Shown here: one piece after another, positions 44,481 to 52,877 of the stretch
Position numbering within the stretch: the stretch's first letter is position 1
How the letters are laid out: the number at the start of each line of letters is the position of its first letter
Source: Flavobacteriaceae bacterium
GTDB taxonomy: Bacteria; Bacteroidota; Bacteroidia; Flavobacteriales; Flavobacteriaceae
Direction: 5' to 3'
Assembly (NCBI GenBank): GCA_031277535.1
Contig: JAITMD010000005.1
Coordinates: forward strand, 124,001 to 188,000
Length of the DNA stretch: 64,000 nt
The notes under the pieces: generated by a model
The model's database searches: none
What the model saw: the letters and a program-made list of their open reading frames with translations, nothing else
What the model was told of the DNA's origin: nothing
Position numbers and translations under genes: made by a program

Positions 44481-44589
44481 GATACTCCTGTAAAAAGTGT
44501 TAGACCTCCTATAATAGTATTTAGATAGAAACCAAAAATTATACAACAACTATATAAAATCATATAACAATTTCTTCATTTGTGTATAG

Positions 44590-44597
44590 TACTTTTG
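44590..44597 (+). promoter_or_regulatory. Putative sigma-A -7 element of the metal-efflux cluster
   Basis: TACTTTTG, 19 bp before the ATG at 44609; the ORF-track start at 44582 lies upstream of it, so the later ATG is preferred. Confidence 0.65.
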
Positions 44598-44608
44598 GCG
44601 GAGAGATT

Positions 44609-45022
44609 ATGAAAAAACTATTCGTCATATTATTCGCACTTTTGTACACAGCACTGGCTTCAGGCTTTAGTACATATCAGCACATCTGTAAGGGATTAGT
44701 GCAACAGACGAGTATGACTAACACTCAGTCAGACGATAGTAGCTGTGGTTTCTGTTCTAAAAAAGGGAATACAGTAAAAGAACCAAAGAAAAACTGTTGC
44801 AAAGAAAAAGTTGAAGTAGTAAAAGTAAAATCAGAAGTTCAAAATAGTTCCTTTAAAATTCTAAAAATAGCATTCTTTACAGATGCTATCTTACACCGCT
44901 ACTTTGGAGCAGTATATGAAGTAGTAGCTACAGTAAAAGACAACTTCACTACTTATACTTATTACTTATACAAGGTCAAAGCAGTACCTCTGTATATCAA
45001 GAATTGCGTTTATAGACTTTGA
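44609..45022 (+). CDS. Cys-rich exported protein (HYC_CC_PP-like)
   Basis: From ATG at 44609 (MKKLFVILFALLYTALASGF), 137 residues with a signal peptide. Cysteine pattern: H-x-C in YQHICKG, CGFC in SCGFCSKKG, and CC in KNCCKEKVEVVKV, then a long C-terminal part with VPLYIKNC. This resembles the small exported Cys-rich proteins (HYC_CC_PP type) that open RND-metal clusters in Bacteroidota. Likely a periplasmic copper- or similar metal-binding protein; metal binding is inference. First gene of a six-gene cluster on one strand. Confidence 0.72.
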   Translation: MKKLFVILFALLYTALASGFSTYQHICKGLVQQTSMTNTQSDDSSCGFCSKKGNTVKEPKKNCCKEKVEVVKVKSEVQNSSFKILKIAFFTDAILHRYFGAVYEVVATVKDNFTTYTYYLYKVKAVPLYIKNCVYRL

Positions 45023-45097
45023 TTAAATACAATATAACAAACCCCTATCTATAGTGGGTACACGTCTCATATTGTATAATTAATCACAACATTTCAC

Positions 45098-46489
45098 ATG
45101 AAAATTAATAGGATAGCACTGTTTGTCCTATTGGGTTCAGTATCTATATCTTATGCTCAGGAGCTAAAGTTAGATGCTGCACTAAAACAGGCTATAGAAC
45201 GATACGACCTTATTAAGGTTAAAGAAGCGAGACTTGCTGCTTCTCAAGAAAATACAATCAATCAAAAAGGAAACTACTTTCCAGACTTAACATTCGGTGC
45301 CCAACAAAGCTACGGTACCATTAACGCGCAGAACGGTCCTTTATACGCTTATGGAGGATTGGGATCAGCAGCTACCTCTATGCCCTTAGCAGAGCAAAAT
45401 TGGAATGCGGCTTTTGGTTCATTATATTTTGCTAATGTCAATTGGAATATCTTCTCTTTTGGTAAAATAAAAGAAGGGGTGAACATGGCAAAGGCTCAAC
45501 AGGAGGTTAACCTTAAGGATTTAGAACAAGAGATTTTTCAACAACAAGTAAAAGTAAGTGCTACCTACTTAAATCTATTAGCAGCTCAGCGTATTAAATA
45601 TGTGCAACAAAAGAATTTAGAACGCGCCAAAGTATTCCATGATGTTACAGCTGCTAAAGCTAAGAGTGGTTTGTTACCTCAAGTAGATGAGCGTTTGGCA
45701 ATGGCTGAAGTGGCTAATGCAGAAGCGCTACATATTAAATCTTATGACAAAGAGATAGAGTTCAATAAGCAACTGGCTGTTCTATTAGATGAACAGACTA
45801 AAACATATACATTAGACAATGTTTTTGTGTCTGAGAAACCTCTAATAGTAGAGGAGACTGTTAGATCTATAGATCAACATCCTATTTTACAATTACAGGA
45901 AAGTAAAATAGCACAAAGCGAATCGATGGAGCGCTTAGTAACTAAGGGAAGTTTACCTACACTTAACGGCTTTGGAGTATTGCAAGGAAGAGGATCTGGT
46001 TTTGACTGGAATTATGTTCAAGATAACAGTGCATACTCTACTGCTTATGGCAAGGGGGTAGGTATCGATAGAGGAAACTACTTAGTGGGGCTTCAATTGA
46101 CATGGAATATATCTAATTATTTTAGAACAACCTATAAGCGTAAACAACAAGAATATACAACAAAGAGTTTTGTGTATGAATTATCTCAGATGGATAAAGA
46201 GTTGACTAATCAAGTTGCTTTGACTAAAGAGAAATACAACAATGCTCAGGCAGTGTGGGCACAGTCCAAAATACAGTTAGAAGCAGCAGATGTCGCTTTT
46301 AAACAGCAGAAAGCTTTATATGACAATGGGTTGAGCAACTTAGTTGATTTTACCCAAGCTTTGTACACTTTACAACGTGCAGAGATTGACTATGAAATAG
46401 CTCAAAACAATGTGTGGCAATCACTATTGTTACAAGCTTCTGCCTACGGAGATATTCAATATTTGTTAAACGCTATTCCCCTAAAATAA
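45098..46489 (+). CDS. TolC-family outer membrane factor
   Basis: 463 residues: signal peptide MKINRIALFVLLGSVSISYA, then two repeated outer-membrane-efflux-protein domains with long coiled helices (ELKLDAALKQAIERYDLIKV; QVKVSATYLNLLAAQRIKYV; QKALYDNGLSNLVDFTQALY followed by LQRAEIDY). Forms the trimeric outer-membrane exit duct of a tripartite pump. Next gene (RND permease) begins 6 bp later, so they are co-transcribed; equivalent to CusC in copper-efflux systems. Confidence 0.93.
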   Translation: MKINRIALFVLLGSVSISYAQELKLDAALKQAIERYDLIKVKEARLAASQENTINQKGNYFPDLTFGAQQSYGTINAQNGPLYAYGGLGSAATSMPLAEQNWNAAFGSLYFANVNWNIFSFGKIKEGVNMAKAQQEVNLKDLEQEIFQQQVKVSATYLNLLAAQRIKYVQQKNLERAKVFHDVTAAKAKSGLLPQVDERLAMAEVANAEALHIKSYDKEIEFNKQLAVLLDEQTKTYTLDNVFVSEKPLIVEETVRSIDQHPILQLQESKIAQSESMERLVTKGSLPTLNGFGVLQGRGSGFDWNYVQDNSAYSTAYGKGVGIDRGNYLVGLQLTWNISNYFRTTYKRKQQEYTTKSFVYELSQMDKELTNQVALTKEKYNNAQAVWAQSKIQLEAADVAFKQQKALYDNGLSNLVDFTQALYTLQRAEIDYEIAQNNVWQSLLLQASAYGDIQYLLNAIPLK

Positions 46490-46495
46490 GATCGT

Positions 46496-49400
46496 ATGAA
46501 TTTAATTCGATTTGCCTTGCGCAAGCCTATATCTATTATGGTATTGGTAATAGGACTATTGTTCTTTGGAATAAAATCTTCTAAAGAAATTCCTGTAGAT
46601 ATACTTCCTGAGATGAATCTCCCTGTGGTTTATATTGCCCATTCATTTAATGGATATACACCACAACAGATGGAAGGTTACTTCACAAAGATGTATGTAA
46701 ATATGATGCTTTTTGCCAATGGGATAAAAAGTATCGACACTAAAAATACACAAGGGTTAACCCTGATGAAGATAGAGTTTTACGAAGGTACAGATATGGG
46801 AGAGGCTATTGCGTCTATCTCAGCACTTTCTAACCGTTCGGTAATCTTCTTACCACCAGGAGCACCACCACCGTTTATTATTCGTTTTGACGCTTCTTCT
46901 CAACCAGTTGGGCAGTTAGTATTCCGTTCAGAAACAAAGACGAATAATGAACTACAAGATATTGCCAACTTTGCCGCACGTCCTTTCTTGATTAAGATAC
47001 CAGGACTAACAACAGCACCGCCATTTGGAGGATCACCACGTACGATAGAGATCAACATTGATCCTAATAAGCTACGCACACACCATATTAGCCCAGAACA
47101 AGTGGTTGAGGCAATCAGCAGACAAAACGTAACAATGCCTTCTGGTAATGTATATGTAGGGGATAAAAACTATCTAACACCAACTAATAATACGTTAAAA
47201 ACAGTAGAAGAGTTTGGCAATATTCCTTTGTTTAAAGGACAAGTGGACAACGTGTTTATTCGAGATGTTGCTACCGTAAAAGATGGAGCAGATATCACGA
47301 CAGGATATGCCTTAGTAGATGGAAAGCGATCAGTATACATTAATATTGCTAAGTCTGGTAAAGCATCTACTTATGATGTGGTAGAAAAGTTAAAAGAGTC
47401 ATTGCCAATGATTCAAAACAACTTGCCAGATGATGTAAAGATATCATACGAGTTTGACCAATCAGTCAATGTAATTAACGCTGTTAAGAGTTTAATTGTA
47501 GAAGGAGTATTAGGAGCTTTGTTAACAGGATTAATGGTAATGCTGTTCTTAAGAAATCCAAGAGGAGCGCTTATCGTAATTATGACTATCCCGATTGCTA
47601 TTATTTCTGCTGTACTGTTTTTAAAGATGTTCGGTCAGACGATCAACATTATGACTTTGTCAGGATTAGCATTAGCGATTGGTATTTTGGTAGATGAGAG
47701 TACGGTAACTATTGAAAATATACACCAGCACTTTGCCCTCGGTAAGACTAAAGTACAGGCTATATGGGATGCGTGTAAGGAGATTGCCTTCCCTAAGTTA
47801 CTGATCTTATTCAGCATCTTGGCTGTATTTGCACCAGCCTTTATGATGACAGGTATTCCAGGAGCATTATTTATGCCGTTGGCAATGGCTATTGGATTTG
47901 CGATGACTGTATCATTCTTATTATCGCAGACATTTGTGCCTATTATGGCAAACTGGTTAATGAAGTACACCCCAGAGAAACACGCTATTCCTGAAGAAGC
48001 AAAAGGATTTGACAAGTTTAAGAATAGAGTAGTCGCTGGTATTGAAAAAGTGATGCCAATGAAGAAGATGATTGTGATAGGTTCTATTGTATTAGCCCTG
48101 TTGTCTGTTGGATTTATGTATCAGAATATTGGTAAAGACGTATTGCCAACAATAAACTCAAGCCAAGTACAGATGCGTATTACTGCTCCAGAAGGGACGC
48201 GTATAGAGCATACAGAAATGAAAGTGAAGAAGCTATTAACGGAGTTAGAAGATTTGTTTGGAAAAGAGAAAATCGCCATTTCATCTGCCTTTGTAGGACA
48301 ACACCCTTCTTCATTTGCGGTAAGCCCGATTTACTTGTATAACGCTGGCCCGCATGAAGCGTCTATGCAGATCGCATTCAAAGACTTTAGTGGTAATACA
48401 GATGAGTTAAAAGATCAGATACGAGAGCGCATAAAAGAGAAATTACCTGAACTAAAAATAACTTTTGAGCCAATTGAATTAACAGAGAAGATTCTAAGTC
48501 AAGGGACGAATACACCTATTGAGATTAGAGTATCTGGCATGATGCGTAAGATGAATATGATGACGGCTAATAAATTATTAGCTAAGTTAAATGAGTTGGA
48601 TTATATGCGTGATGTAAAAATGCCTATTTCTATGAATTATCCTTCTTATGAGATTAATATTGATAGAGTACGTGCAGCACAGTTAGGATTAGATGCGATG
48701 GACATTGCTAAATCAATGGTAGCGACTACAGCTTCATCAAGATATACGAATCGAAATATGTGGGTAGGAGGTATGATGGGTATCGCTTATGATGTACAGG
48801 TACAGATGCCACAGAATCAATTGGGGAGTAAAGAGGAGTTAGAGAATATTCCATTGAGCAAGAATGCTGATAGACCAGTGCTTAGTGATGTTGCTACAAT
48901 AACTGAGGGTAAGGCACTTGCAGAGAGTTATAATGAAGGAACGATGGGGTATGTAACTGTAATTGCCAATGTACATAAAACAGATTTGAATAGAGCCAAA
49001 GAAGATGTGCAAAAGGCAATAGCAGAATTAGGAGAGTTGCCTAAAGGGGTAAATGTGGAGCTTAAAGGTATGGCACCAGTATTAGATGATACAATGAAGA
49101 GTTTAGCTAATGGTTTATTGATTGCTGTTGTTGTTATCTTCTTGATGTTAACTGCTAACTTCCAATCGTTTAAAGTATCATTTGTGATCTTAACGACAGT
49201 GCCTTTCGTAATGTTAGGATCACTATTGTTATTAAAAGCGACTGGATCTACAGTGAACTTACAGTCTTATATGGGAATTATCATGTCTGTAGGGGTATCC
49301 ATAGCTAATGCGGTACTGCTAATTAACAATGCAGAGACACTGCGCAAAACAGGTTGGACATCTACAGCTGCGGCAATAGAAGCAACGAGATTACGTCTAA

Positions 49401-49654
49401 GACCAATTGCTATGACAACGATAGCGATGATAGCAGGTATGTTGCCTATGGCTATAGGACATGGAGAGGGAAGTGAGCAAGTAGCTCCTTTAGGACGTGC
49501 AGTAATTGGAGGACTATTAGCTTCTACAGTTTCAGTTCTTATTATTCTACCTATGGTATTTGCTTGGGTGATGAATAAAGTAACAAGAAACTCTCCGTCA
49601 TTGGATCCAGAAGACACAGAAAGCATTCACTATTTACCTACTGAAAACAAATAA
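46496..49654 (+). CDS. RND efflux permease (AcrB/CusA superfamily)
   Basis: 1052 residues, 12 transmembrane helices and two large periplasmic loops: full-length RND pump. N-terminus NLIRFALRKPISIMVLVIGL, porter domain SNRSVIFLPPGAPPPFIIRF, TM4 segment LALAIGILVDESTVTIENIH, TM10 segment MSVGVSIANAVLLINNAETL and RLRPIAMTTIAMIAGMLPMA. The proton-relay pair is D400-E401 instead of Asp-Asp, and the TM10 lysine of AcrB is replaced by Ala, so proton coupling differs from AcrB; the CusA/CzcA motif DFGxxVDGA is absent. Substrate is suggested by neighbours (metal) rather than by its own sequence. Confidence 0.93.
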   Translation: MNLIRFALRKPISIMVLVIGLLFFGIKSSKEIPVDILPEMNLPVVYIAHSFNGYTPQQMEGYFTKMYVNMMLFANGIKSIDTKNTQGLTLMKIEFYEGTDMGEAIASISALSNRSVIFLPPGAPPPFIIRFDASSQPVGQLVFRSETKTNNELQDIANFAARPFLIKIPGLTTAPPFGGSPRTIEINIDPNKLRTHHISPEQVVEAISRQNVTMPSGNVYVGDKNYLTPTNNTLKTVEEFGNIPLFKGQVDNVFIRDVATVKDGADITTGYALVDGKRSVYINIAKSGKASTYDVVEKLKESLPMIQNNLPDDVKISYEFDQSVNVINAVKSLIVEGVLGALLTGLMVMLFLRNPRGALIVIMTIPIAIISAVLFLKMFGQTINIMTLSGLALAIGILVDESTVTIENIHQHFALGKTKVQAIWDACKEIAFPKLLILFSILAVFAPAFMMTGIPGALFMPLAMAIGFAMTVSFLLSQTFVPIMANWLMKYTPEKHAIPEEAKGFDKFKNRVVAGIEKVMPMKKMIVIGSIVLALLSVGFMYQNIGKDVLPTINSSQVQMRITAPEGTRIEHTEMKVKKLLTELEDLFGKEKIAISSAFVGQHPSSFAVSPIYLYNAGPHEASMQIAFKDFSGNTDELKDQIRERIKEKLPELKITFEPIELTEKILSQGTNTPIEIRVSGMMRKMNMMTANKLLAKLNELDYMRDVKMPISMNYPSYEINIDRVRAAQLGLDAMDIAKSMVATTASSRYTNRNMWVGGMMGIAYDVQVQMPQNQLGSKEELENIPLSKNADRPVLSDVATITEGKALAESYNEGTMGYVTVIANVHKTDLNRAKEDVQKAIAELGELPKGVNVELKGMAPVLDDTMKSLANGLLIAVVVIFLMLTANFQSFKVSFVILTTVPFVMLGSLLLLKATGSTVNLQSYMGIIMSVGVSIANAVLLINNAETLRKTGWTSTAAAIEATRLRLRPIAMTTIAMIAGMLPMAIGHGEGSEQVAPLGRAVIGGLLASTVSVLIILPMVFAWVMNKVTRNSPSLDPEDTESIHYLPTENK

Positions 49655-49658
49655 AAAG

Positions 49659-50750
49659 ATGAAAAGAATATATATAGCATTAGTAAGCCTTGTAGTATTA
49701 ACAGCTTGTGCAGATAAGAAAACAGCTAAATCAACTGAAAAGAAAGAGGAGAAGACAGGAATGAACATGATGATGAATAAGATGGAGACTATTCCTTTAG
49801 AAAAGATAAATCCTACTGTTCCACTTCAGTTGCCAGGAGAATTAAGAGCAGATCAGCGTACAGAGATATTTGCTAAAGTGAACAGTTATGTAACTGATCT
49901 AAAAGTGGACATCGGAAGTGTAGTAAAGAAAGGACAAGTACTAATGATATTGGATGCTCCAGAAATACAAGCTCAGGTAGCTAATGCCCAAGCTAAATGG
50001 AAAGCACAAGAAGCTATCTATGTTGCTACAAAGGCAACTTATGATCGTACGATAAAGGCTAATCAGACAGAAGGAACTATAGCACCGGATTATTTAGAAC
50101 AGATAACAGCTAAGATGTTGGCAGATAAAGCTCAAGTAGCTTCGGCTAAGTCAGCTTATGAAGAGACGAGAAATATAGATCAGTATTTGGTTATCAGAGC
50201 ACCATTTGATGGAGTGATAACAGATAGACAAGTGGACAAAGGGGCTTATGTAGGGCCAATGAGTAAACTTCCCTTATTGACAGTAGAAGATACAAGAACA
50301 TTGAGATTAAAGTTGTCTATTTCGGAGGCGAATACACCTTATGTAAAGGAAGGTGATACGGTGAAGTTTAAAGTGCGTACACTACCTCAAAAAGAGTTTA
50401 CAGGGGTAGTAACACGTAAGGCAGGAAGTTTAGACTTAAAGCTTAGATCAGAGCAGATACAAGCTGATATCAACAATGCAGAACATTTATTAAAGCCAAA
50501 TATGATAGCTGATGCAACTGTCAATCTGAAAGGGGCAGAGCCGAGTTTCTTTGTTCCTAAATCTGCATTAGTAGATAGCAATCTTGGAATGTATGTGATA
50601 GAGGTAAAAAACGGAATAGCATATCACCGAAAAATCACTAAAGGGCGTGTAAACGGAATGATGATAGAAGTATTTGGAGACCTAACAGTAGGAGCTAAAA
50701 TATTAAAGATGGCTACTGAAGAAATAATGAATGAACAAAAATTAATGTAA
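49659..50750 (+). CDS. RND periplasmic adaptor lipoprotein (membrane fusion protein)
   Basis: 363 residues: lipoprotein signal (LVSLVVLTAC), then a short Lys/Met-rich linker (KTGMNMMMNKMETIP; Met clusters can bind Cu(I)), barrel-sandwich hybrid (LRADQRTEIFAKVNSYVTDL, VGSVVKKGQVLMILDAPEIQ-like), alpha-hairpin (ANAQAKWKAQEAIYVATKAT), beta-barrel (LRLKLSISEANTPYVKEGDT) and membrane-proximal domain. Links the RND permease with the outer-membrane duct. Four bp after the permease gene. The Met-rich segment supports a copper role but is short. Confidence 0.92.
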   Translation: MKRIYIALVSLVVLTACADKKTAKSTEKKEEKTGMNMMMNKMETIPLEKINPTVPLQLPGELRADQRTEIFAKVNSYVTDLKVDIGSVVKKGQVLMILDAPEIQAQVANAQAKWKAQEAIYVATKATYDRTIKANQTEGTIAPDYLEQITAKMLADKAQVASAKSAYEETRNIDQYLVIRAPFDGVITDRQVDKGAYVGPMSKLPLLTVEDTRTLRLKLSISEANTPYVKEGDTVKFKVRTLPQKEFTGVVTRKAGSLDLKLRSEQIQADINNAEHLLKPNMIADATVNLKGAEPSFFVPKSALVDSNLGMYVIEVKNGIAYHRKITKGRVNGMMIEVFGDLTVGAKILKMATEEIMNEQKLM

Positions 50751-50754
50751 TAAA

Positions 50755-51219
50755 ATGAGATTGAACATTATTAAAATAATTACTATAATAAGTATTACAC
50801 TTTTTATAGTTGCCTGTGGAAAAACCAAAAATGAGATTGAACCTGCTGCAAAACAAGGATTAGAACAATCTATGCAAGAGGCTCAACAGGTTGTTGAAAA
50901 AGAAAGAAAAGAAACAGGAACTTCTCAATATAAAAAAGGAGATAGTATACCTAAAGAACTGGTTTGCATGGTAAATGATGCTTTTATGGGGACAGAGCAA
51001 CTACTTGTAGAGTTTGAAGGTAAACAGTACTATGGTTGTTGTGAAATGTGCAAGGCGCGAATTCCAGAAGATAAAACAGTTCGTGTAGCTCTTGATCCCT
51101 ATACACTTAAAGAAGTAGATAAAGCAGAAGCATACATTGTAATGATAGGAAACAAAGGAGAAGTAGCATACTTTGCAAATGAAGATAATTATAAAAAATT
51201 CTTAGCTGAAGGTAAATAA
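50755..51219 (+). CDS. Cys-rich (TRASH-like) lipoprotein of the metal cluster
   Basis: 154 residues with lipobox (ITLFIVAC). The C-terminal half reads ELVCMVNDAFMGTEQLLVEF, then GKQYYGCCEMCKARIPEDKT, VRVALDPYTLKEVDKAEAYI. The Cys spacing (C-x23-C-x3-C) is close to the TRASH metal-binding motif (C-x19-22-C-x3-C). Probably a periplasmic metal chaperone or sensor for copper or a similar thiophilic ion; the function is inferred from Cys pattern and position right after the adaptor gene (4 bp). Confidence 0.72.
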   Translation: MRLNIIKIITIISITLFIVACGKTKNEIEPAAKQGLEQSMQEAQQVVEKERKETGTSQYKKGDSIPKELVCMVNDAFMGTEQLLVEFEGKQYYGCCEMCKARIPEDKTVRVALDPYTLKEVDKAEAYIVMIGNKGEVAYFANEDNYKKFLAEGK

Positions 51220-51239
51220 GATTAATTTGTATAATCAGG

Positions 51240-51266
51240 GTGTGCTACAATTTATGTGTAGCACAC
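51240..51266. repeat. Perfect hairpin between lipoprotein and regulator genes
   Basis: GTGTGCTAC / GTAGCACAC, 9-bp perfect stem with a 9-nt loop, 21 bp before the regulator's ATG. No T-run follows, so it is a candidate operator or mRNA control element rather than a standard terminator. Confidence 0.6.
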
Positions 51267-51287
51267 TCATTAAAAAAACGGGCAAAT

Positions 51288-51863
51288 ATGAAGTACTCAA
51301 CAACCTTATATATAAAAAACATGGTTTGCCACCGTTGTGTTTTAATGATAGAACAAGAAGTTAGTAAACTTGGTATTTTAGAAGCTGTTGTTTCATTAGG
51401 GGAGATTCATTTTAAGAATGAACTATCTTCAGAAAACACATTAAAGTTAAAAGAACAAATAGAACAATTAGGGTTTGAATTGTTAATACAAAAACAAGAT
51501 ATACTTATTGAGCGTATCAAGCAATTGATTATAGAGCTTGTTCAACAAGATAAAAAACTAACCACAAATTTATCCTATTTAATTTCTGAGACATTAGCCA
51601 TGGACTATAGCTATGCCAGTAAACTATTTTCAGAACGTGAACTACTTACTATTGAAAAATATTATATCTATCAACGCATAGAACGCGTCAAGGAATATAT
51701 ATCATATGGAGAACTAACACTTGTAGAAATAGCTAATACAATGTATTATAATGATCTAAGCCATCTAAGCAAACAGTTTAAAAGTGTAATGGGAGTCTCT
51801 CCATCTCAATATAAAAAAGAGCAGAACTATAATAGAAACTATATAGATAAAATTATTACTTAG
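51288..51863 (+). CDS. HMA-AraC fusion regulator (predicted metal sensor)
   Basis: Start moved from 51240 to ATG 51288 (MKYSTTLYIKNMVCHRCVLM), because the longer reading would pass through the hairpin; 191 residues. N-terminal heavy-metal-associated domain (about 1-65) with the metal-binding CxxC at C14-C17 (MVCHRC), followed by a linker and an AraC-type double HTH domain (about 95-185): SYASKLFSERELLTIEKYYI, then TLVEIANTMYYNDLSHLSKQ and FKSVMGVSPSQYKKEQ. Normally HMA domains are on copper chaperones and P-type ATPases. The fusion implies Cu(I)-type metal binding directly controls DNA binding, likely of this cluster. Confidence 0.85.
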   Translation: MKYSTTLYIKNMVCHRCVLMIEQEVSKLGILEAVVSLGEIHFKNELSSENTLKLKEQIEQLGFELLIQKQDILIERIKQLIIELVQQDKKLTTNLSYLISETLAMDYSYASKLFSERELLTIEKYYIYQRIERVKEYISYGELTLVEIANTMYYNDLSHLSKQFKSVMGVSPSQYKKEQNYNRNYIDKIIT

Positions 51864-52418: not shown

Positions 52419-52877
52419 ATGATAACATTAAATATAGGAGATAAAGCTCCTAATTTCTCTGGAATTGACCAAACTGGTAAAAAACATACATTAAAGGACT
52501 ATGAGGGTAAAAAATTAGTAGTATTCTTTTATCCTAAAGCAAGCACGCCTGGATGTACTTGGGAAGCGTGTAATTTAAGAGATAATTATGCCGAACTACA
52601 AGCAAAGGGATATGAATTATTAGGAGTTAGTGCTGATTCTGCTACTAAACAACAAAAATTTATAGAAAAGAACCACTTGCCATTTCCTCTACTTGCAGAT
52701 GAGAACAAAGAGGTAGTAAATGCTTTTGGGGTTTGGGGGCCAAAAAAATTTATGGGAAGAACCTATGATGGTATTCACAGAACAACTTTTGTGATAGATG
52801 AAGATGGAATGCTTTCTAATATTATTACTAAAGTAAAAACAAAAGATCATGCTTCTCAAATCTTAGAGAACTCTTAG
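52419..52877 (+). CDS. bcp: Thiol peroxidase BCP (AhpC/TSA family)
   Basis: 152 residues, thioredoxin-dependent peroxiredoxin that reduces peroxides in the cytoplasm. Opens LNIGDKAPNFSGIDQTGKKH; peroxidatic Cys46 in FYPKASTPGCTWEACNLRD, with C51 five residues later as the typical resolving Cys; the YDGIHRTTFVIDEDG C-terminal stretch is BCP-specific. It is followed 12 bp later by the DUF2157 gene, so may be co-transcribed with that membrane module. Confidence 0.93.
   Translation: MITLNIGDKAPNFSGIDQTGKKHTLKDYEGKKLVVFFYPKASTPGCTWEACNLRDNYAELQAKGYELLGVSADSATKQQKFIEKNHLPFPLLADENKEVVNAFGVWGPKKFMGRTYDGIHRTTFVIDEDGMLSNIITKVKTKDHASQILENS

Follow-up and report, generated by a model that had tools for sequence, protein, structure and literature searches.

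HMA-AraC proteins as predicted copper-responsive activators in Bacteroidota, with a shared operator and a conserved Met-rich RND cassette

Proteins in which an HMA domain is fused to an AraC-type DNA-binding domain (HMA-AraC) are likely to be cytosolic Cu(I)/Ag(I)-responsive activators of Bacteroidota. In the genome that contains the 64,000-nucleotide stretch analyzed here (the window, part of a 426-kb contig in a genome of 3.77 Mb), the predicted regulon consists of copA, genes for a CopZ-like protein and a multicopper oxidase, and a five-gene efflux cassette. More broadly, and with a little more reserve, HMA-AraC proteins probably form a new structural class of copper metalloregulator that serves many Bacteroidota as a general sensor-activator, controlling CopA, CopZ, multicopper oxidase, and an undescribed Met-rich RND cassette from an operator with 21-bp-spaced half-sites at a fixed distance from a TAnnTTTG element. 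The gene set, its conservation, the operator box, the repeat geometry, the promoter spacing, and the links of the box to HMA-AraC genes and copper operons were computed; from these we infer the identity of the metal, DNA binding, activation rather than repression, the pump substrate, and the assignment of paralogs to boxes. The earlier note on this DNA had proposed a copper-type efflux unit with a cytosolic metal sensor of the AraC type, and that proposal is well supported computationally by the box, the copper-operon context, the predicted folds, and the conservation of Met and Cys residues.

According to the proposed model, excess cytosolic Cu(I) or Ag(I) would be bound by the HMA cysteines of an MVCxRC motif, and the AraC domain, which probably dimerizes, would occupy the 21-bp-spaced direct repeat. 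The downstream half-site would replace the −33 element, such that RNA polymerase would be recruited to the TAnnTTTG −7 box of a promoter that has no good −33 element. The output would be CopA, the CopZ-like chaperone, a Cys-rich exported protein together with the multicopper oxidase, and the RND pump; the cassette would export copper-type ions from the periplasm via a Met-rich RND-TolC pump, assisted by Cys/Met-rich exported proteins. Counting against this model are the Pfam HMA score, which falls below the cut-off, the branches of the family that have lost C14 or the whole motif, the 12 of 46 cassette promoters that carry no box, one copA that has the box in a genome with no detected HMA-AraC, and the lack of a conserved CusA Met triad.

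The gene cluster and the HMA-AraC regulator

The six co-directional genes that the earlier note had listed were all recovered by ORF calls and profile searches, each on the forward strand. The first (44609 to 45022) encodes an exported Cys-rich protein of 137 amino acids (aa) that belongs to the HYC_CC_PP family (NF047658; 33.3 bits, cut-off of 28). It is followed by genes for a TolC-type outer-membrane factor of 463 aa (45098 to 46489; PF02321, E = 7e-34), a Met-rich RND permease of 1,052 aa (46496 to 49654; PF00873, E = 1e-189) that scores under the cut-off of the CusA/CzcA model TIGR00914, and a periplasmic adaptor lipoprotein of 363 aa with an N-terminal Met cluster (49659 to 50750; TIGR01730, 174.7 bits, cut-off of 94.9; HlyD_D23). 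The presence of PF00873, TIGR01730, and PF02321 in one operon identifies a tripartite RND efflux system. The fifth gene (50755 to 51219) encodes a TRASH/YHS-like lipoprotein of 154 aa, and the sixth (51288 to 51863) encodes the HMA-AraC regulator of 191 aa. The best start of the regulator is the ATG at 51288; the ORF from 51240 merely has a longer GTG start.

The DNA-binding domain of the regulator (residues 95 to 178; 51570 to 51821) was recognized by HTH_18 (PF12833; 51.9 bits, cut-off of 33.6) and HTH_AraC, and the top Foldseek matches of the protein were AraC-family DNA-binding domains. A MerR-type HTH was not found; Pfam gave an AraC-type HTH and HMA alone. The HMA domain (residues 5 to 66; 51300 to 51485) is divergent, scoring 21.7 bits (E = 2.7e-4) against a PF00403 gathering cut-off of 24.8, or 23.4 bits in a six-frame search. 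In the AlphaFold2 model (mean pLDDT of 89.8), these residues have the ferredoxin-like secondary structure beta-alpha-beta-beta-alpha-beta of an HMA-like fold at a pLDDT of about 90, and the model continues with a long helix (residues 69 to 86) and the helical AraC domain. Atx1 copper chaperones were aligned to the N-terminal part by Foldseek (TM score of 0.74 by target; E = 0.4). An MxCxxC motif is present on this fold as MVCHRC (residues 12 to 17), with C14 (51327 to 51329) and C17 (51336 to 51338) at the positions given earlier. M12, V13, R16, and C17 show no variation among 34 aligned HMA-AraC members, at least 90% of which keep C14.

HMA-AraC is a widespread family in Flavobacteriaceae and usually lies beside copper ATPases. 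Of 121 genomes sampled from this taxonomic family, 103 gave matches at an E value of ≤0.001, a count that includes plain AraC matches; the HMA-AraC-encoding set used below consists of 62 genomes that we selected for a strong match (E of about 1e-15 or better). Neighboring genes encode copper-type P-type ATPases, CusA/CusB-like RND proteins, and clusters with MerT-HMA-like proteins. In 10 loci (L057 to L061, L064, L068, L069, L073, and L077), the HMA-AraC gene is part of a large metal cluster that also encodes MerT-HMA-like fusions and small conserved proteins; these surroundings suggest an additional role of the family in mercury or mixed-metal clusters.

A predicted operator and its regulon

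The predicted HMA-AraC operator lies ahead of the cassette at 44536–44570 on the forward strand. It is a direct repeat of AATNNTRYAA with half-sites at 44537 to 44546 and 44558 to 44567, that is, with a spacing of 21 bp (AAATTATACAAC-N9-AAAATnnTATAACA), and 19 bp separate it from a predicted −7 promoter element of Bacteroidota, TACTTTTG (TAnnTTTG; 44590 to 44597, forward strand), which follows the operator at a fixed spacing across sites. With a start codon at 44609, the transcript would have a very short leader. Two regions, at 44.4 to 44.6 kb and at 51.24 kb, had been singled out as candidate regulatory DNA; the first contains the predicted operator, but none was found near the second, and regulation from the 51.24-kb region was rejected because no box was found upstream of the HMA-AraC gene of the window. 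The regions upstream of the HYC gene in nine Myroides-type loci have AATTATACAA...TATAAcA in common, and cassettes of other genera, which have no adjacent HMA-AraC gene, are preceded by the same box arrangement.

A loose search of the window's own genome, allowing three mismatches, gave 131 matches compared to 136 in the control and was replaced by an exact degenerate pattern, which gave four matches genome-wide compared to two in the control. All four are upstream of, and oriented toward, copper-type genes. Besides the site before the cassette, boxes were located before copA (C2:69557; a CopA-type ATPase with HMA and HMBD domains), before the gene for a copZ-like HMA protein of 65 aa (C10:44795), and before the gene for a Cys-rich exported protein of 115 aa that is followed by an 831-aa multicopper oxidase (C10:106467). 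Since the operator is shared with these other copper genes, the cassette is one branch of a regulon, and the description of the cluster as "self-contained" could not be upheld. In most other genomes the cassette carries this operator but has no HMA-AraC next to it, the regulator being encoded elsewhere. The promoter box offers a means of regulon prediction in many genomes. The 115-aa protein, encoded between the predicted operator and the multicopper oxidase gene (L210:4534-4881; G000:C10:106533-106880), had no Pfam or NCBIfam match. A peroxiredoxin gene (AhpC/TSA family) at 52419 to 52877 in the window, 555 bp past the regulator, has no box ahead of it.

The same genome encodes a second HMA-AraC paralog (G000:C16:184059; 186 aa, MVCARC) with neither a box nor a recognized copper gene beside it. 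It is possible, if somewhat unlikely, that this paralog and not the HMA-AraC of the window drives the cassette and copA here: in most genomes the cassette is box controlled with no adjacent HMA-AraC, and, of the two HMA-AraC proteins, the paralog, which belongs to an ortholog group kept in Myroides, resembles most CopA-adjacent regulators more closely (44 to 55%). The regulator of the window, however, is the sixth gene in 8 of 8 other Myroides loci, with which it groups in one supported clade, and this favors its assignment to the cassette.

Conservation and probable substrate of the RND cassette

Searching species-representative genomes with the RND permease as the query retrieved 52 loci. 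The order HYC-TolC-RND-adaptor-TRASH is kept in most of them; some are broken by contig ends or are without the last gene. In the HYC protein, H25, C27, C46, C49, C63, and C64 are invariant in 46 orthologs and C133 is kept in 45, and in the lipoprotein motif VCMVNDAFMG...YYGCCEMC, residues C71, M72, M78, C95, C96, and C99 are invariant in 38 orthologs and M98 is kept in 37. Because the first five genes recur in most of the loci and because the Cys residues of both small proteins are invariant or nearly so, the gene order reflects more than chance, and the HYC_CC_PP, TolC, RND, adaptor, and TRASH-like lipoprotein genes constitute a five-gene cassette conserved across Bacteroidota. The lipoprotein is called only TRASH/YHS "like" because it scores below both Pfam cut-offs (YHS, 20.2 bits with a cut-off of 30.3; archaeal TRASH, 16 with a cut-off of 27).

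Cassette-bearing genera include Flavobacterium, Empedobacter, Chryseobacterium, Sphingobacterium, Pedobacter, and Sediminibacterium. The RND identity ranges from 73 to 97% among Bacteroidota loci, with Myroides marinus as the closest named match (97%), and is 65% in Myxococcota. This match and the grouping of the regulator with those of the other Myroides loci point to a Myroides-type flavobacterium as the likely source of the DNA. Apart from the window, an HMA-AraC gene directly 3′ of the cassette was found only in one Weeksellaceae genome (L111) and in the other Myroides loci, eight in number; the idea that cassette and HMA-AraC always travel together was ruled out, as most cassette loci have no adjacent HMA-AraC. 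In the Myxococcota loci L141, L142, and L152, the same RND occurs with TolC and mostly with the adaptor; the HYC, TRASH lipoprotein, and HMA-AraC genes are absent, and conserved genes of other families lie 5′ of TolC.

The RND permease contains 57 Met residues (5.4%), compared to 2.5 to 3.2% in ten other RND proteins of the fetched loci, and many of these, including Met 66, 70, 71, 682, 760, 761, and 817, are invariant in 49 orthologs. The adaptor N terminus is likewise Met rich (e.g., MPMMMM and MGMGMGMM), a feature kept in the Bacteroidota orthologs shown. A further amendment to the earlier interpretation is that the pump, although unusually Met rich, is not a curated CusA/CzcA-type permease: the score with the HME-RND model TIGR00914 was 379 bits (cut-off of 701), and the CusA Met triad (M573, M623, and M672) is not kept. 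CusA M573 aligns to M560 of the RND, a position occupied by Val in 35 of 49 orthologs; M672 is paired with Ile; and M623 falls near the invariant H620-E621, in a partly ambiguous part of the alignment. This score and the missing triad residues led us to reject the HME-RND label. Judged by its context, the permease may work like a copper pump, and the cassette is best read as a Met-rich exporter, probably of copper-type ions, that does not belong to the curated CusA/CzcA family. This RND cassette, which is highly conserved throughout the phylum, is not identified as a metal pump by the family models used.

If the regulator and the box act as described, the cassette might still export mercury, zinc, or organic compounds, with copper merely the inducer. 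Such a substrate would fit the 537 bits that the permease scores with a multidrug-type RND model, which is above its CusA/CzcA score although likewise under the cut-off, as well as the lack of a conserved triad and the location of other HMA-AraC genes beside clusters with MerT-HMA-like proteins. It is nevertheless unlikely given the invariant Met/Cys sets, the Met-rich permease and adaptor N terminus, the operator common to the CopA, CopZ-like, and multicopper oxidase genes, and the several other genomes in which CopA adjoins the cassette.

Promoter architecture, linkage of box and regulator, and known systems

A 35-position matrix was trained on cassette promoters alone, with no copA sites in the training set. 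It scored ≥19 in 34 of 46 cassette promoters, the other 12 having no box, and 99% of shuffled regions scored below 3.1; most of the 34 box-bearing loci have no adjacent HMA-AraC. The matrix holds no information on the TAnnTTTG element. Even so, 95 of the 109 unique sites have a match to 5 or more of its 6 bases at an offset of 18 or 19 past the 35-mer. In promoters with class II activators, the downstream half-site is found at the −33 region, at a constant distance from the −7 box. A site so close to the promoter could also serve a repressor or a dual regulator, but the downstream half-site lies in the −33 region at a constant 18 to 19 bp from the −7 box, which is the class II layout; repression or dual control by HMA-AraC is therefore improbable, and activation is the preferred reading.

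Using the cassette-trained matrix, a box was found in 30 of 31 gaps between HMA-AraC and copA (shuffle P ≤ 0.02 each) and in 19 of 43 other gaps downstream of HMA-AraC. The exact pattern matched 82 times in the 62 genomes, and 30 of these matches are no more than 6 kb away from an HMA-AraC gene, compared to 0.48 expected; the binomial P value of about 2e-45 assumes independent sites and is overstated because related genomes and neighboring sites are not independent, and the 60-fold excess itself is hard to explain otherwise. The exact counts alone (82 versus 36 in the control for genomes with HMA-AraC and 43 versus 28 for genomes without it) separate the two sets only weakly; it is the position relative to genes that carries the signal. 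The copA promoters had a box score above 11 in 11 of 30 cases in HMA-AraC genomes and in 1 of 22 in genomes without it (Fisher P = 0.006), and the sole box-bearing copA from a genome with no detected HMA-AraC is about 335 bp away from the end of its contig. Moreover, HMA-AraC is encoded in 35 of 35 Bacteroidota cassette genomes tested and in 0 of 3 Myxococcota. That another regulator binds the box and HMA-AraC is just co-located, as the predicted nature of the site and the many cassette genomes with no adjacent HMA-AraC might suggest, is very improbable in view of the near-universal box before HMA-AraC-linked copA, the clustering of boxes around HMA-AraC genes, the fit of a direct repeat two helical turns apart to the sites typical of the AraC family, and a C-to-T change that both half-sites share in those Myroides whose regulator is divergent.

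CueR, a MerR family protein, is a cytosolic Cu(I) sensor that controls the CopA ATPase and a multicopper oxidase (copA and cueO). The predicted role of HMA-AraC is the same, but CueR uses a MerR palindrome in a long spacer rather than a 21-bp-spaced direct repeat overlapping −33, and the HMA sensor domain has a fold unlike that of CueR. With CusCBA, the cassette shares an RND protein, adaptor, and outer-membrane factor, a Met-rich adaptor N terminus, and associated exported metal-binding proteins; it differs in its RND score and triad, in its HYC_CC_PP and TRASH-like proteins, and in its predicted AraC-type control in place of CusRS. Like AraC, MelR, and SoxS/MarA, HMA-AraC combines a C-terminal two-HTH domain with a direct repeat two helical turns apart, the promoter-proximal half-site of which is at the −35/−33 region, but its N-terminal sensor differs: the usual ligand-binding domain is replaced by an HMA metal-binding domain of 60 residues. 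The MxCxxC loop on a ferredoxin-like fold is shared with the CopZ/Atx1 chaperones, but here the HMA domain is fused to a DNA-binding domain and is divergent enough to fall below the Pfam cut-off.

Taken singly, AraC regulators, HMA domains, and RND pumps are all well known. In the open-access literature searched, we found no precedent for a copper sensor of the AraC family that uses an HMA domain and has a defined operator and regulon, and no description of HMA-AraC, of AraC-type copper regulators in Bacteroidota, or of HYC_CC_PP, although such absence is not proof. In the genome of Bizionia argentinensis (Flavobacteriaceae), one study looked for the copper sensor among known families, detected neither a MerR nor a CopY homolog with a copper site, and turned to ArsR proteins instead; AraC is not mentioned in its text (PMC11213822). 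Cytosolic copper sensing in Bacteroidota thus appears to be an open question, for which the present results offer a candidate sensor family, operator, and regulon. Because the HMA domain scores under the Pfam cut-off, annotation pipelines are likely to label them simply as AraC-type regulators, which may explain why these proteins were missed.

Several members of the family depart from the pattern described above. In one branch (L062, L066, L072, L074, L078, L080, and L081), the sequence at the motif is IKYMVSLRC, in which Ser replaces the first Cys (C14), and the gene often adjoins another of about 110 aa; weak box-like sites were seen 5′ of the next gene in L066 and L072. This branch may sense another signal or bind metal differently. 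A divergent member without the MxCxxC motif is encoded at L083:7961-8527 (G098:C1), and divergent members (L083, G062, G024, G111:C29, G013:C18, and G022:C93) have box matches 2 to 4 kb away that adjoin genes other than copA. As some members of the branches without C14 or without the motif still have box-like sites nearby, the box tracks the AraC domain rather than the metal site itself. Lastly, L207 and L209 each carry a tandem HMA-AraC pair with a box in between, possibly reflecting cross-regulation of the paralogs.
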